From Candidatus Aramenus sp. CH1 (lineage in GTDB: Archaea; Thermoproteota; Thermoprotei_A; Sulfolobales; Sulfolobaceae): 64,000 nt of DNA. Positions within the stretch are counted from its first letter, which is position 1. Each line of letters opens with the position of its first letter. The position numbers and the translations under genes were made by a program. Below, in pieces: positions 9,471 through 21,040 of this stretch. The stretch spans positions 124,001 through 188,000 of the forward strand of contig JALBWU010000001.1 in the NCBI GenBank assembly GCA_022678445.1, in the 5' to 3' direction. A model generated the notes under the pieces. That model was not told the origin of the DNA and made no database searches. It saw nothing but the letters and a program-made list of their open reading frames with translations.

Positions 9471-9491
9471 TTTTAAACTGACTTGATGCAT

Positions 9492-11189
9492 ATGGACAAA
9501 CTCTCTTACGACGCAGTGGTCGTGGGAGGCGGACTTGCTGGACTAATGGCAGCCCACGAGATCGCGTCCTCTGGCTTCAAGGTAGCGGTAATCTCTAAGG
9601 TCTTCCCAACTAGGTCGCACTCGTCCTCTGCAGAGGGAGGTATAGCAGCTTACATCCCGGGGAACTCCGACCCAAACGACAACCCCGACTACATGACCTA
9701 CGACACGGTCAAGGGTGGGGACTACCTAGTGGACCAAGACGCGGCGGAGCTCCTATCCAATAAGTCTGGAGAGATAGTCAAGATAATGGAGAGCTGGGGA
9801 ACACTATTCAACAGGCAACCCGACGGAAGGGTTGCAGTGAGGTACTTTGGCGGGCAAACTTACCCTAGGACTAGGTTCGTGGGCGACAAGACAGGGATGG
9901 CCTTGCTCCACGCCCTCTTCCAGAGGGTGTCAGGGCTCGACATAGACTTCTACAACGAGTGGTTCGCCCTGGACCTGATAAAGGACGAAAGGAAGGTAGT
10001 AGGACTAGTCGCAATGGAGATGAGGTCCATGAGCCCCGCCTTCTTCAGGGCGAGGGCCGTGGTAATGGCCACTGGGGGCATGGGGATGCTCTACCAGCAC
10101 ACCACGAACGCTTACATAAACACCGGGGACGGCTACGCTATGGCGTTGAGGGCAGGGGCGGCAATAAAGGATCCGGAGTTCGTCCAGTTCCACCCCACTG
10201 CCCTTTACCCCTCAGATATCCTCATAAGCGAGGCCGCGAGGGGAGAGGGAGGCATACTCAGGAACGTGAAGGGAGAGAGGTTCATGGCCAGGTACGCGCC
10301 AAAGAAGTTGGACTTGGCCCCAAGGGACATAGCGTCTAGGGCAATAGTAACTGAGATAAGGGAGGGGAGAGGGTTCCCTGGAGGATACGTTGGCCTCGAC
10401 TTAACTCACTTAGGCGAGGAGTACATCAAGGAGAGGCTGGCCCTCGCATACGAGGCTGCTATGAACTTCGCCGGAGTGGACGCCACAAAGGAACCCATTC
10501 CAGTGAGGCCTGCACAGCACTACTACATGGGGGGGATCGACGTTGACATAACTGGGACAAACCGGGACTTGATAGGACTCTTCGCTGCGGGAGAGGCCGC
10601 TTGCGTGTCCGTACATGGGGCGAACAGGCTGGGGTCTAACTCCCTTCTTGAGACCTTGGTCTTTGGCAGGGAGACCGGGAGGGCAGTGGCCTCGTTCTTA
10701 AAGGAGGCGACGGAGTCCTCGGCGAGCGTGGACAAGGAGGCAGAGAAGGTAGTGGACGAAGCGTACTCCTTCGTCAAGAGCGAGAGCGGAGAGCACTTCG
10801 GCGTTATTCTCAACAACCTAAGGAAGACAATGTGGGACAACGTGGGGATATTCAGGGACGAGGACGGGCTAAAGACTGCCATCTCTGACGTGCTGAAGCT
10901 GAGAGAGGAGGCAAAGAGGATGTACGTGTTGGACAAGAGCAAGAGCTACAACACCGAGTTCTTCAACGCCTTGGAGCTGAGGAACATGCTCGATCTGGCA
11001 ATAGTGATAGCCACAGCTGCCTTGAACAGGAAGGAGTCTAGGGGTGCCCACTACAGAACCGACTACCCAGAGAGGGACGACAAGAACTGGCTCAAGCACA
11101 CCGTTGCCTACTTAAGGGGGAACACTATTGAGATAGACTACAATCCAGTTAAGATCACCAGGTTCCAGCCGGAGGCGAGGGTGTACTGA
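9492..11189 (+). CDS. sdhA: Succinate dehydrogenase flavoprotein subunit
   Basis: 565 residues from ATG 9492. FAD motif VVVGGGLAG at the N-terminus, the SHSSSAEGG segment with the histidine (His43) that carries covalent FAD, the HPTALYP and EAARGEGG active-site motifs with substrate-binding Arg, and [13 protein letters not shown] near the C-terminal third. Oxidises succinate to fumarate on the membrane and passes electrons to SdhB, feeding caldariellaquinone. The stop is 1 nt before sdhB. Confidence 0.97.
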
Positions 11190-11190
11190 A

Positions 11191-12135
11191 ATGGAGAACG
11201 AGCAGGAGATCGTTGTAAGGGTAAGGAGGTTCAACCAAGAGAAGGGAGAGTGGTGGCAGGAGTACAAGCTGAAGGTAGACAGGTTTACGCAGATGACCGA
11301 AGTGCTTAGGCGGATAAAGACCGAGCAGGACCCGACCCTGGCTTACAGGGCGTCCTGCCACATGGCCGTGTGCGGTAGCTGTGCAATGAAGATAAACGGA
11401 GAACCGAGGCTCGCATGTAAGACCTTGGCGTTGGACGTTGTCAAGAAGTACGGCTCTAACGTAATAACGGTAGAGCCAATGGACTTCTTCAAGAGGGAGA
11501 AGGACCTCATAGTGGACATGGAGGACTTCTACTCGAGGATGTTCAAGGTCAAGCCGAGGCTCTACCCGTCCAAGGAGGTACTGGAAGGAAAGGCAGAGCA
11601 TAGGCTAAAGCCTGAAGACCAGAGGGAGCTGTGGAAGTTCGAGCAGTGCATCTGGTGTGGGCTATGCGTCTCAGCGTGTCCTGCAGTGAGGATAGACCTG
11701 GAGTTCCTAGGCCCCGCCGCGCACGCAAAGGGCTATAGGTTCCTGGCAGACCCCAGGGACACAATATACGAGGAGAGGCTCAAGATCCTGGTGGACAGCG
11801 CGTGGAGGTGCACCTACTGTTACATGTGCTTTAACGTCTGCCCAAGGGACGTGGAACCGGTGACGGCAATAAAGAAGACGAGGGCCCACACCAGGTTCTT
11901 GAGAGAAAGGACGCCCGTCGCCAACACCGGCGAAAGGCACATCGAGGCGATAGAGGAGTCAATAAGGGAGACCGGGAAGATCCAGGAGGCCTCGGTCTAC
12001 TTGAAGACCTACGGCGTCCTAGGCTCCCTGACCGACCTCATCTACGCGTTCCAGAACGGGAAGCTCAAGTACGCGCTTATTAAGGAAGAGAAGGTTAAGA
12101 ACATTGAGCAACTCAAAAAGTTGATGGGTGAGTGA
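11191..12135 (+). CDS. sdhB: Succinate dehydrogenase iron-sulfur subunit
   Basis: 314 residues. N-terminal plant-type ferredoxin domain with [2Fe-2S] ligands Cys56, 61, 64 and 76; C-terminal bacterial ferredoxin domain with Cys153/156/159/163 and Cys207/210/213/217. Both C-terminal sets keep four cysteines, so the centre that is [3Fe-4S] in canonical SdhB is probably [4Fe-4S], as described for Sulfolobales enzymes. The C-terminus is longer than in typical SdhB (~240). Overlaps sdhC by 8 nt. Confidence 0.96.
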
Positions 12136-13024
12136 GATGACAAACAACAGCAACAAGATAGCCTATTACCCTGGGTGTGCCACCCACGGGCTCTCAAAGG
12201 ACGTGGACATAGCGACAAAAAAGGTAGCAGAGGTGTTGGGGATAGAACTTGTCGAAGTTGAGGACTGGAACTGCTGTGGTGGGGGCTTCCTGGACGAGAG
12301 AGACGAGGTAACCCACACTGCGCTAAACTTGAGGAACTTGTCCAACGTGGAGAAGATGGGGCTACAGAAGATGGTCACACCGTGTAGCGTGTGCCTGCAG
12401 AGCCACAGACTTGCCTCGCACAAGTACCACGAGAACAGGGACTTGAGGAAAGAAGTGGACAAGAGACTAAATGACGCAAAGGTTGAGTACTCTGGAAAGG
12501 CAACCGCGGAGCACATAGTGTGGGTTCTAGTGAGAGACGTAGGACTGGAGAAGATAAAGTCACTCGTTAAGAGGCCCTTGACGGGGCTGAAGGTAGGGGC
12601 TTACTACGGTTGCCAGATGCTTAGGCCAGAGCAGGTGATGGGGTTCGAGCCGGCTTTTAAACCACATAGCCTGGAGGACTTAATCTCTACCACTGGGGCT
12701 ACCCCGGTGACTTTCCCTATGAGAGCGGCGTGCTGTGGCTTCCCCCTCATGGGGAGCAACCCTAAGGGCGGGCTAAAGTTGGCCTACAACGTGCTCAGCT
12801 CAGCCAAGAGCTCCGGCGCCGACATCCTAGTGCACCCGTGCAGTCTCTGCCACCTACAGCTAGACGTCATCCAGCTAAAGGTAAAGAACGAGTTCAGTGT
12901 AAACTGGACGCTCCCAGCCATCTACGTGACCCAACTCTTAGGACTGGCATTTGGCTTCTCCCCAGAAGAGCTAGGGATAAGTAAGTTGACCCAGAATGTA
13001 CTCAAGGAAAAGGGGTTCGCTTGA
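12128..13024 (+). CDS. sdhC: Succinate dehydrogenase subunit C, CCG-domain (HdrB-like)
   Basis: 298 residues, GTG 12128 (ATG 12137 is an alternative). Two CCG modules are visible: WNCCGGGF with PCSVC, and [10 protein letters not shown] with HPCSLC, the cysteine-rich repeats also found in heterodisulfide reductase HdrB. In the Sulfolobales-type (class E) succinate dehydrogenase this protein replaces the usual haem-binding membrane anchor and binds an iron-sulfur cluster. There is no obvious transmembrane helix, so membrane attachment is monotopic or via SdhD. Confidence 0.93.
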
Positions 13025-13034
13025 GGTGGTGGAA

Positions 13035-13385
13035 ATGACTATAGAGGAAGAAGTCGTGAACGCGTTAAAGAGGGCGGGCGCAGAGGTCGGCGAATGGAAG
13101 GAAGTGTCAGAGAGACCAGGGAGGGCACCCTTCGCCAAGGAACTAGAGTACAAGGTTCAGGATCTCATGTGGGGGAAAGTACACCTGAGGCTAACTGGAG
13201 AAATCTACGTACACGTGATCTCCAAGTTACCCTTCAACTGGAAGGACAGAGTCAAGGAGCTAAAGCTCTCAGGAGAAGTGGTGGACGCTGCTGGAGGGCT
13301 AATGTGGCTACAAGAGCGGAGCCCAACGGACTTGCTAAAGGACCTTGAGTTTTTGAGGGACTACCTATCCAAGTTGAAAAAGTGA
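13035..13385 (+). CDS. sdhD: Succinate dehydrogenase subunit D (small, crenarchaeal type)
   Basis: 116 residues. The open frame extends back to 12996 inside sdhC, but ATG 13035 has a strong GAGGTG ribosome-binding site (13023-13028) with a 6-nt spacer, so I use it. The sequence is amphipathic rather than hydrophobic and has no family motif; assignment rests on it being the fourth gene after sdhABC with the size of Sulfolobus SdhD. It probably helps to hold the complex on the membrane. Confidence 0.75.
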
Positions 13386-13465
13386 AGAAAAGGAGAGGAG
13401 GCCCCAGCCTCATTCTGCCACGGTTGCGTGGAACGTTGGCTGGGTATGGCCAAGATTTAGTTTAG

Positions 13466-13486
13466 AGCTTTACAAAAAAAGCTTTT
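13466..13486. terminator. Bidirectional terminator between sdhD and viaA-like genes
   Basis: A 6-bp inverted repeat AGCTTT/AAAGCT with a 6-nt loop is followed by TTTT on the plus strand; read on the minus strand the loop gives a run of seven T. It lies in the 110-bp gap between the convergent operons. Confidence 0.5.
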
Positions 13487-13495
13487 CTAAACCCC

Positions 13496-14860
13496 TTACG
13501 CCTCTACTACCTTCAACAAGTCGTTTTGGTCTAGCTTGTATACCACGAAGTAGTTGTCTGAAATCCTCCTCAAGTCGGCGTTGTCCCCCCTTATCATGAC
13601 GCTGATCAAAGTCGCGTTTGCCTCCTTTAAGTACCTCCTCACCGTGGTCTCAGCTATCTTGTCCTCACCGTCGGTGAGGATTATGACGTCGCTTACCCCC
13701 TTTACGTGGCCCTCCTTTATGTCCTCACACGCCGAGATTATTGACCTGCTTATGTCTGTCCCTCCCCCTCCCCTTATCTTGCCAATGTACTCCACCATCT
13801 TTATCACGTCCTTGCTCTTTGCGTTCTTTATGACCTTAATCAGGGGATAGGGTATGTTGTCGAAGAACCTCAAGTAAAAGTCCCTGTTCTCCCTCTTAGC
13901 CCTACTGTAGAGGGCAAGGGCAACCGCCTTTGCCCAAAGTATCTTCTCCCCGTCCATACTGCCCGACTTGTCCAGCAAGAGGTAAATGGGGCCCAAGGTC
14001 TCCTTTATCTGTTTCTGGTAAAGCAACAGCTCGTTCTCAGCTAACTTCACGTAGAAGAGCTCCTCTGGCATCGCCAGCTCAGATGGCACCAACCTCTCTA
14101 GGTCGGAACCCTCCTCGTAGCCGTAGAGCTCTCCCTTAGTGTACCTAGTCGTCCTCCTTTTGGTTATGCTCCCCAGCTTGGGTATCCCGTTGAGGAACTC
14201 GAGGATCTTCTTTATCTCGGTGTTCCTAGCTAGCCTCAGGACCTCGTGGATCTCCCCCTCAAAGTTCAACATGCTCCCTGTCCCTGCTCCGTTGCCTCCC
14301 ACTATCCTCTGCATGCTCCTCACGGCACTGGCATCCTCTGCTGCCTTGGAGAGGGCCTTTTCATGTGCCTGCTTCATAACCTTGTTGACGGACTCCTGGG
14401 GCTGCTGCGACTGCTGTTGTTGCTGTTTCTCCTCGCCCTCTTTCCCTGAACTTCCCTTCATGAGCCCGTTGAGGATCTGCTCTGCCGCCTGCCTCTCCTC
14501 TTGGGACTGGGAAGTCCTCCTGATCCTCTCCAGCTCCTCGATTAAGTTCTGGACGTAGCTTACGGAGAGCGCCATACTCACTGCCGAGTTTGCTATTGAG
14601 TAGTTCCTGTTCCTGTTAACAACGTCAGAGGCCAAGGTCATGTCCAAGAGGGTGAACTTTATCCCGTCCTTGGGATCCACGTCTGACTTAGGCTTCAGCA
14701 AGGGTAAAGGTAGGTAGTGGATGTAATAGGTGTCTATTAGGAAAGCCGGGTCTACGTTGGACTCTCTACCCGACACCTTTTTCAGCGTATAGGAGATCCT
14801 CTCTCCCCTATACTTCACTATGGGGTCCTCGTAGTCCACCCCAACTAAAAGGCCGCTCAT
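13496..14860 (-). CDS. VWA-domain protein, ViaA-like
   Basis: 454 residues. The C-terminal von Willebrand A domain has a full metal-ion-dependent adhesion site: Asp297-x-Ser299-x-Ser301 in LLLDKSGSM, the RGGGGTD threonine/aspartate and LTDGED. Before it, the segment with [12 protein letters not shown] and AENELLLY matches the arrangement in E. coli ViaA (DLSRLLPSELL ... AERRLLTY). A Gln-rich linker lies near residue 145-157. The gene overlaps the RavA-like ATPase by 4 nt, so they are made together. Such proteins act as cofactors of MoxR AAA+ chaperones. Confidence 0.87.
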
Positions 14861-16014
14861 GAGTATATCCCCAGCTTTTTGGCCACCTTCTCAAGGAGCT
14901 TGTCTATTTCGGAGCTCACTTCCCTCGAGAACTGCTCCACCTTCTCCTCCCCGCTCTCCTTACCTAGGGCGATCACCCTGTCTCTAGTTGCCCTCAACGT
15001 TCTGATCAAGTCAATTAGCCTTGGATCGCTCTCTGAGGCAGAGTCAACGTACTTCCCCGCCTCCTTGATGTTGTTGTATATCTCGTTGAGCTCCCTCATG
15101 TACTTGATGGGGGTCTTAAGCTCCTCAGAGAGGAGTGCCGACACCTTCTCGAAGTCGTCTATCTCCTTGGGGGCTATGTACTTGAGCACTATTAGATCTT
15201 CTTCGCTGGCCCTCAGCCTCCCGTTGAGCAGTGAGTGCGCTGCTACTAGCTTTAGAACCTTGCCCTTCCTCCTGTCACTTAAGTGTATCCCCTTTTCCTC
15301 AAGCATAGCAAACAGCTTTAGCAACTTGCTTTTCACGGAGCTCAAGTCCACCTCCGTCAGCATGGAGTAAATGGCGTCGAGGTCTTGTATGGACATAACT
15401 GGCGAAGTCACCTTCCACTTGTCGCTGAACTCCAACTCCCACGCAGAGTCCAGCAAGCTCTTCCATAGGTCTTCCCCTATTGGCCTAGCGTAGTGCCTCA
15501 ACAGCAACCTATCGTAAAGCGCCTCAAGCTCTGGCTCGTCTGGGACCCTGTTGGAGGCGCTTATGAGCGTCCTCAGGGGTACCTTGATCACGTTGTACCC
15601 ATCGTATATTACCCTCTCGTTCAACAGGGAGAGGAGGGCGTTGAGGATAGCGGAGTTGGCGTTGAAGATCTCGTCGAGGAAGGCGAGCTCGCTCTCCGGT
15701 AACTTGTCCTTGGTTATCCTCTTGTACACCCCCTGCTTGAGGGCGTTTATGTCAAGTGCACCGAAGAGCTCGGCTGGTTCAGTGTACTTGGTGAGCAGGT
15801 ACATGAAGAACTTGGCGTTCAATATCTCAGCTGCCCTCCTGGCTAAGGCGGACTTTGCTGTGCCCGGCTCCCCTATTAGCGAAACGTGCTCCTTCGTTAT
15901 CAAGGCAAGGGTTATTACCTTGGCCTCCTCCTCCCTACCTACGAAGGGCGAAGACAGGGACTCAAGGAATTTCTTAGGTAGTTCTAATAGCCTATTTTCC
16001 ACTACTTCCCACAA
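14857..16014 (-). CDS. MoxR-family AAA+ ATPase, RavA-like
   Basis: 385 residues, TTG start. Walker A GEPGTAKS (48-55), Walker B ELAFLDEI (109-116), sensor-1 SASNRVPDE (Asn155) and the YDRLLLR segment. The stretch from EPAELFGAL through [12 protein letters not shown] matches E. coli RavA better than generic MoxR proteins. The C-terminal region is helical. Paired with the VWA gene, it should form a hexameric chaperone acting on a complex or cofactor-containing protein. A TTTATAAG box (minus strand, 16036-16043) sits 25.5 nt before the TTG. Confidence 0.9.
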
Positions 16015-16035
16015 TATATTTTATACATTTTTTAG

Positions 16036-16043
16036 CTTATAAA
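16036..16043 (-). promoter_or_regulatory. TATA box of the RavA-ViaA-like operon
   Basis: TTTATAAG on the minus strand, centred 25.5 nt before TTG 16014; supports a leaderless transcript and the TTG start. Confidence 0.6.
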
Positions 16044-16079: not shown

Positions 16080-16511
16080 TCACTGGTTCAAGTAAATTGC
16101 GGTCACGAGCAACGTTTCCCCGTTGCTGAAGCCCAAGTCAAGGGTCACGTAGGTGCCCTGAGGTACAGCGGTAGTGGGAACTAAGCACAGGGTCAGCGAG
16201 TCCACGCCAGTGTAAAGTACTACAGGGGCAGTGGCGTTCCCCCTTTCGTAAAAGGTGACGTTCTGGTTGTCCAAGGAAACGGAGACGAGGTCGACTTTTC
16301 CCGTAACCTTGAAGGTCACAGTTAGTTCGTAGTGGCCATCCCCTGTGGGAGAGATGTAGGCTGTACCAAGCTGAGTACCTACTGGGGTAGAGGATATTGC
16401 CCCGGAGAGGCCAAAGGAGAACGCGACCAATAATATGGCTATAACTATCGATGTAATGACCAGAATCAGCGTGGAAAAGGCGTTCGACAGACCCCTCTTT
16501 ACTTTCGCCAT
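16080..16511 (-). CDS. Archaeal type IV pilin-like protein
   Basis: 143 residues. N-terminal class III signal peptide MAKVKRG followed by a ~25-residue hydrophobic helix (LSNAFSTLILV...), the layout processed by the prepilin peptidase PibD after the glycine. The rest is a Thr/Val/Gly-rich beta domain ending in NGETLLVTAIYLNQ, similar to the end of the pilin at 26452 (DGETVVVSVIAQ). It stands alone with no assembly ATPase or platform gene nearby, so it must use machinery encoded elsewhere. A TTTTTATAG box at about 16541-16549 (minus strand) lies upstream. Confidence 0.8.
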   Translation of the reverse strand: MAKVKRGLSNAFSTLILVITSIVIAILLVAFSFGLSGAISSTPVGTQLGTAYISPTGDGHYELTVTFKVTGKVDLVSVSLDNQNVTFYERGNATAPVVLYTGVDSLTLCLVPTTAVPQGTYVTLDLGFSNGETLLVTAIYLNQ

Positions 16512-20306: not shown

Positions 20307-20588
20307 TTATATGGAGATAAGGGACGCTTCCTGCAATTGCTCTAACACGGTTACTATTGGGTCCCTTATCTGAGAAGACTCGATGTTCGCCTCTTTGCTT
20401 ATCTCCTCTATGATCTGGCTTACGGTCTTCTCTCCGTCACACATGTTCCACACGTAAAACGCTATGGGGGCTACCTCGTAGATCTTGTCCTCTGCGAGCT
20501 TGATAATGTAGTTCTCTCCGTCCTCAGACTTGTCTATTACCTCTCCCTTCCTAACCGGCTTTACGTCCTTTATTTCGTCGAAGTTCAC
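20307..20588 (-). CDS. PqqD-like small protein
   Basis: 93 residues, GTG start. The pattern [21 protein letters not shown] then [18 protein letters not shown] matches the PqqD family, which binds peptide substrates for radical-SAM or other modifying enzymes. There is no pqq operon or radical-SAM partner gene within the window, so the client is unknown. Its GTG overlaps the SSB stop in a GTGA junction, so both come from one transcript. Confidence 0.8.
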
Positions 20589-21040
20589 TCCTCTTCTCCT
20601 CCTTCTTCGTCTTCTTCCCTAGGTCTCCTAGGGCCTCTGCCGAACCTCCTTCCTCCTCCGCCTCTACCTCTAAAACTTCTTCTAGGCTGGAAGGAGTTGT
20701 CGGTGGGCATATTCTCTGGGATCTGGTCCTCGCTTGGGGCTGAGTTGTCCTCTACTTCGGACACAGTAGACTTGCTACCGGCGTTTAGTTGTACCTGCCC
20801 TCTGAAGACAGTCGTCCAGCCGTTCTCCACCCTTATTGCCTGCCCTTGCTTGACGTCGTCGAACTTGGTCCCCCATAGCGTGAGCTTGACCCTACCAGTC
20901 TCGTCCCCAACAACAAGCTCACGAATGGTTCGGGGACCATTCTTCGTCTGGATTGTCTTTTGTTCTCCTACTTCGAGAACTCTTGCGGTTACATTTACGC
21001 TTTCCATTCCACCTTTTAGGTTACCTATCTTTTCGTCCAT
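20585..21040 (-). CDS. ssb: Single-stranded DNA-binding protein (crenarchaeal SSB)
   Basis: 151 residues. One OB fold (about residues 8-100, with [14 protein letters not shown] and [19 protein letters not shown]), then an Arg/Gly-rich linker and an acidic tail ([11 protein letters not shown]), matching the Sulfolobus SSB layout and length. It coats ssDNA during replication and repair, and the acidic tail recruits partners. A TTTTTAAC element on the minus strand (around 21063-21070) lies about 26 nt before the ATG. Confidence 0.95.

Follow-up and report, generated by a model that had tools for sequence, protein, structure and literature searches.

A RavA-ViaA-type MoxR/VWA pair of Sulfolobales beside a succinate dehydrogenase operon

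In the hot-spring archaeon Candidatus Aramenus sp. CH1 (family Sulfolobaceae, a congener of Candidatus Aramenus sulfurataquae), the genes of a MoxR-type AAA+ ATPase and a VWA protein lie tail to tail with sdhABCD, which encodes a CCG-type succinate dehydrogenase (SDH). Does this arrangement reflect a chaperone dedicated to SDH, or has a more general machine come to lie there? The window analyzed here is a stretch of 64,000 nucleotides (contig JALBWU010000001.1, positions 124,001 to 188,000), and its relevant features are listed in Table 1. The best explanation, held with good confidence, is that the two genes encode a MoxR/VWA remodelling pair of the RavA-ViaA type, which belongs to the old general equipment of Sulfolobales, came to lie beside sdh through lineage-specific rearrangement, and is not dedicated to SDH. 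In a literature search of openly licensed papers, no work on the Sulfolobus pair as such turned up.

Table 1. Features of the window around the ATPase/VWA pair (positions are those of the window)
Feature	Position	Strand	Remark
sdhA, flavoprotein subunit	9483-11189	+	profile matches
sdhB, iron-sulfur subunit	11191-12135	+	profile matches
sdhC, CCG-type (heterodisulfide-reductase-B-like)	12128-13024	+	profile matches
sdhD-like small gene	13035-13385	+	
Convergent gap viaA/sdhD	13386-13495		110 bp; structured, one terminator-like site per strand
ViaA-like VWA protein	13496-14860	-	454 aa
RavA-like MoxR AAA+ ATPase	14857-16014	-	385 aa, TTG start
TATA-like TTTATAAG, 5' of ATPase gene	16036-16043	-	read from sequence
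Small secreted-looking protein	16080-16511	-	
Stand-alone PqqD-like protein	20307-20588	-	adjoins SSB gene
SSB gene (single-stranded-DNA-binding protein)	20585-21040	-	

The ATPase and VWA genes overlap by 4 bp and face the sdh genes from the opposite strand. The initial annotation had set the pair directly beside sdhABCD across a 110-bp gap, and the coordinates and gene order are correct. It had also read the gap as a bidirectional terminator. Either strand of the gap folds better than shuffled sequences do (z -2.4 and -2.7), and two terminator-like sites are found against 0.2 expected; structure and a site are thus present on each strand, while the sites are only putative as archaeal terminators. 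Because the two gene sets are convergent, the pair is not co-transcribed with sdh. The sdhD-like gene gives no match in a Pfam search, and it follows sdhC in all 11 Sulfolobaceae loci compared in which both genes were called. The TATA-like element lies about 25 nt 5' of the TTG start of the ATPase gene, a spacing that would fit a leaderless transcript. The small secreted-looking protein has an archaeal-type-IV-pilin-like N-terminus (KRGLSNAFSTLILVI...) and no Pfam match, and a second copy of its cluster lies at about 26452.

Among proteins of solved structure, RavA is the closest relative of the ATPase. The ATPase matches PF20030 (1.8e-61), AAA_5 and AAA_lid_8, the same three domains as E. coli RavA. 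The solved RavA is its best PDB match by sequence (phmmer 2e-40) and also in a fold search with the predicted model (3e-11), and the two proteins share 37% identity over 272 columns of the AAA+ module (hhalign 2e-38). RavA is the top family by a wide margin in an NCBIfam search, with a score of 160 bits that lies below the equivalog cut-off of 681 bits (NF010054). The nucleotide-binding motifs are intact (Walker A GEPGTAKS and Walker B LAFLDE), and a sensor-1 motif is present as well. The segments FTEPxELFGPLDI, FLDEIFxAN, and EALYDRxLL, which correspond to the RavA-specific segments proposed from the sequence, are present throughout the RavA-like clade. In ATV p618 they are less well kept, and MoxR proteins of the YehL, GvpN, and MRP types lack them. 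The structural model is poor over residues 68-146. It contains three C-terminal helices (residues 302-381, block pLDDT mostly 81-92), a predicted bundle that may correspond to the triple-helical bundle of RavA. A Pfam search of the ATPase gives no match to the LARA domain or to ATPase_RavA_C, both of which are present in E. coli RavA. LARA is the part of RavA that binds LdcI and lipids. A search of the genome for further RavA copies returned a single strong match, with the runner-up at E 0.004, ruling out more than one copy.

The VWA protein is composed of a helical N-terminal region, a pre-VWA segment at about residues 240-285, and a VWA domain at residues 290-437 with an intact MIDAS (DKSGSM, GGT, TDGED). 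ViaA is its top NCBIfam match (2e-10), with 40 bits against an equivalog cut-off of 500 bits (NF008230), and direct comparison with ViaA gives 5e-10 by BLASTP and 97% by hhalign. The pair is therefore RavA-ViaA-like, as first suggested, with a RavA likeness far beyond chance and ViaA as the leading family for the partner. The likeness to ViaA is concentrated in the VWA domain and the short stretch preceding it. The pre-VWA segment, which lies in the ViaA middle domain, is found again in the VWA proteins that partner RavA in bacteria, but YehP does not have it. Taken alone, it matches E. coli ViaA weakly (E 0.033, best shuffle 0.42) and the plasmid and phage intermediates clearly (6e-9 and 3e-5). 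Its assignment as a segment shared with ViaA is upheld. Compared with E. coli ViaA, the N-terminal region scores below significance (E 0.16), and the choice of client may therefore differ. A fold search with the model of the VWA protein returned generic VWA domains, the Rea1/MDN1 MIDAS, and NorQD, and the N-terminal (VAN-fold) domain of ViaA was not among the 50 best matches.

In four relatives, the ViaA-like protein has an intein that splits the MIDAS motif itself (DK^SGSM). These inteins begin with CL.. and end with VHN. The intein of G135 (L044:10560-12890) has about 334 residues and matches Pfam Intein_splicing (1.1e-14). Those of G077 (L053:10203-11915), G071 (L146:2602-4320), and G089 (L147:2484-4193) are mini-inteins of about 141-144 residues, and the Intein_splicing match in G077 is under the cut-off.

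The relationship of the ATPase was analyzed in a tree built from 54 AAA+ modules. In it, the ATPases of Sulfolobales are monophyletic (98/98) and group with bacterial RavA together with the RavA relatives of plasmids and a phage (94/87). When several of the longest branches are left out, the clade joins at the same place, but support falls to 24/0. A viral source of the ATV p618/p892 type could be considered, since p618 has a bpMoxR domain, is 25% identical to the ATPase, and has been termed a member of the RavA subfamily (PMC3893208). However, ATV p618 and the SMV1 protein branch apart from the Sulfolobales clade, forcing them onto it is rejected (p = 0.03), and the ATPase gene tree follows host relationships. 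The trees rule out a viral origin, whose probability is practically negligible; a grouping with the ATV-type clade, named beforehand as evidence against the initial proposal, is not what is found. The pair is classed with RavA-ViaA, as a new member from the archaea.

RavA-like ATPase and VWA pairs also occur on mobile elements, namely plasmids of Alicyclobacillus and Brevibacillus (L120, L121) and a Moorella phage (L122). The pair on the Alicyclobacillus plasmid adjoins dnaN and a CHC2 primase-type gene. In addition, a contig labelled Candidatus Micrarchaeota (L085:7772-10872) carries a pair, with an ATPase of 40% identity over the full alignment and a VWA protein with a Gln/Asn-rich repeat. 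Its presence there represents a transfer or a binning error.

The initial proposal was a dedicated chaperone of the CCG-type SDH, acting in cofactor insertion or assembly. Distribution does not follow this reading. Across 197 genomes of the order Sulfolobales, with the presence of SDH defined by an SdhA above the family cut-off, the ATPase is found in 177, the VWA partner in 179, and SDH in 88. ATPase and SDH occur together in 80 genomes, the ATPase alone in 97, SDH alone in 8, and neither in 12 (Fisher p = 0.81). In family f7, the pair genes are absent from all five genomes, two of which are finished, and SDH is above the cut-off in four. Incomplete genomes blur some absences of the pair, but not those in f7. 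Almost every member of Sulfolobales thus has the pair, which is an old component of the order and occurs independently of SDH. As a separate observation, one locus in G179 (L070:5079-12576) contains two tandem SdhA/SdhB-like sets.

Linkage to sdh is also restricted. The genes are convergent neighbors in 20 of 31 Sulfolobaceae genomes, several kb apart in 6, and unlinked in 5; of the 11 genera, 5 show a looser linkage or none. No more than 6 kb separates sdhA from the ATPase gene in 20 of the 31 Sulfolobaceae genomes, and in none of the 34 genomes outside this family that have both genes. In g2 (Metallosphaera), sdh is several kb away and reoriented, facing cysGS, and in g8, g9, g10, and g11 it is located elsewhere. 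In g9 and g11, viaA directly abuts a HAD gene. Where the linkage exists, this gene borders sdhA on its far side, a pattern that would result from clean insertion or removal of the sdh block. A five-protein tree places g9 as basal (84/85), and the remaining unlinked genera are not clearly basal. Whether through insertion or repeated loss, the linkage is labile.

The junctions of the region in Sulfolobaceae loci are kept to different degrees. The viaA-sdhD junction is kept in 7/15, the ravA-viaA junction in 15/15, the sdh-internal pairs in 11/11, and most flanking gene pairs in 9-12/12. ravA and viaA are also adjacent in nearly all loci read in the rest of the phylum. A weak viaA-sdhD junction amid well-kept neighbors is not as expected of a selected partnership. 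The conserved gene order with sdh that the initial annotation had called for is largely lacking, and the position beside sdh looks like an accident of gene order rather than the sign of a dedicated respiratory chaperone.

Apart from the shared locus, several observations connect the pair to SDH. Deletion of sdhB in E. coli suppresses the phenotype of RavA-ViaA overexpression (PMC3893208), E. coli ViaA binds FrdA (PMC10585395), and the MoxR-like SSO2363 and SdhA SSO2356 of S. solfataricus were both recovered with tagged aIF5A (PMC6105217). Against these stand the distribution and the linkage described above, together with the convergent, non-operonic arrangement, and on distribution and linkage the dedicated chaperone was rejected as very improbable. 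What is retained of the proposal is a RavA-ViaA-type pair facing a CCG-type SDH operon; dedication to SDH is not. In a weaker form of the proposal, SDH may be one of several clients, in view of the E. coli links to sdhB and FrdA. The pair might also serve more generally against membrane or respiratory stress, with SDH among a number of clients. Such a role is debated for E. coli, in which RavA-ViaA has been connected with lipids, fumarate reductase, and NADH dehydrogenase (PMC3893208, PMC10585395, PMC9489729). However, LARA, which is required for lipid binding by RavA (PMC9489729), is missing in the archaeal ATPase, and the pair is present in many genomes without SDH, leaving this an unlikely account.

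The oldest neighbor of the pair found is not sdh but SSB, the most widely kept ATPase neighbor among those tested in the order. In 53 genomes of five families, SSB and the ATPase gene are no more than 6 kb apart; in 50 of them SSB is upstream and divergent, often at a distance of 150-1200 bp. In the window, the block of SSB, PqqD, MoeA, homoserine kinase, and cysGS genes is inverted, and SSB is therefore 4.6 kb off. The stand-alone PqqD-like protein is kept with SSB across families.

A second lead comes from S. solfataricus, where SSO2363 co-purified with tagged aIF5A (40 peptides vs 1) and SdhA SSO2356 appears in the same list (16 peptides vs 3) (PMC6105217). SSO2363 (43.7 kDa) is numbered beside SSB SSO2364 (PMC6105217, PMC3518317), and from its name, mass, and position it is probably the orthologue of the ATPase. 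These two leads raise the alternative that the client is a complex of translation or of nucleic acids. The TatD DNase or DUF123 genes that adjoin the pair in other families and the setting of the Alicyclobacillus plasmid relative among dnaN and primase-type genes are in keeping with it. However, a shared function does not follow from divergent placement, the SSB block also carries along genes for homoserine kinase, MoeA, and a PqqD-like protein, and SSB linkage was not seen in families f2, f4, f5, and f8. Moreover, pull-down lists are rich in abundant proteins, and the VWA partner is unrecognizable in the aIF5A list. The alternative is tentative and on balance not likely. The SSB and aIF5A leads nevertheless point away from a purely respiratory role, without proving another. 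A bolder and rather improbable version holds that the near-universal machine, divergently linked to SSB and reportedly co-purifying with aIF5A, remodels a translation or nucleoprotein complex as a functional counterpart of Midasin-type MIDAS machines, with bacterial RavA-ViaA as an offshoot of an older general pair.

For the preferred reading, a general RavA-ViaA-type remodelling pair, a mechanism can be outlined by analogy. NorQD provides a model for a hexamer, a docked VWA partner, and a client grip through the MIDAS (PMC9976466). In E. coli, the middle domain of ViaA stimulates RavA through the triple-helical bundle, for which LARA is dispensable (PMC10585395, PMC9489729). By comparison with both systems, the archaeal ATPase would form a hexamer, and the ViaA-like protein would dock through its pre-VWA segment onto the helical bundle and, like the middle domain of ViaA, stimulate ATP hydrolysis. 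The MIDAS metal of the VWA domain may then grip an acidic patch of the client, which ATP hydrolysis would remodel. The shared pre-VWA segment and the predicted bundle suggest that the coupling parts are conserved, with LARA missing.

What RavA-ViaA does in the cell is a matter of dispute even for E. coli. The existence of a near-universal archaeal pair that lacks LARA and occurs regardless of SDH argues against a core function bound to a single respiratory complex, and Sulfolobus offers a genetically tractable host for finding that function. The locus is also a warning that convergent neighbors should not be taken as functional partners.

Several known systems combine a MoxR-type ATPase with a VWA protein. 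ATV p618 and its SMV1 counterpart share the bpMoxR domain and a VWA partner with the archaeal pair, but form a distant, separate branch and have a long C-terminal extension and a virion or tail role. The MoxR-vWA-beta-propeller conflict systems, from which the Pfam name bpMoxR originates, share the Pfam AAA+ model, as does E. coli RavA. However, no third beta-propeller or effector gene is found beside the archaeal pair, which is flanked by sdh and by a small gene that belongs to no family, and a defense system was rejected because the pair has no PADLOC match. NorQ-NorD and CbbQ-CbbO of the CGN subfamily probably share the general MoxR and VWA mechanism with its MIDAS-mediated client grip, whereas the archaeal pair has no NCBIfam match to those families and the subfamily member GvpN branches far from the archaeal ATPase. 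The pairs of Firmicutes plasmids and the Moorella phage are of similar length, with an adjacent VWA partner and the pre-VWA segment, but are 34-38% identical and reside on mobile elements. Compared with E. coli RavA-ViaA (ravA b3746, viaA b3745), the archaeal ATPase lacks LARA and a match to ATPase_RavA_C, the N-terminal domain of its partner is not recognizably that of ViaA, and the family scores are far under the equivalog cut-offs. In both, however, two overlapping genes form a unit with the ATPase first, a RavA-type AAA+ module is followed by AAA_lid_8 and a C-terminal helical bundle (predicted in the archaeal ATPase), and the VWA partner carries a MIDAS and the pre-VWA segment.
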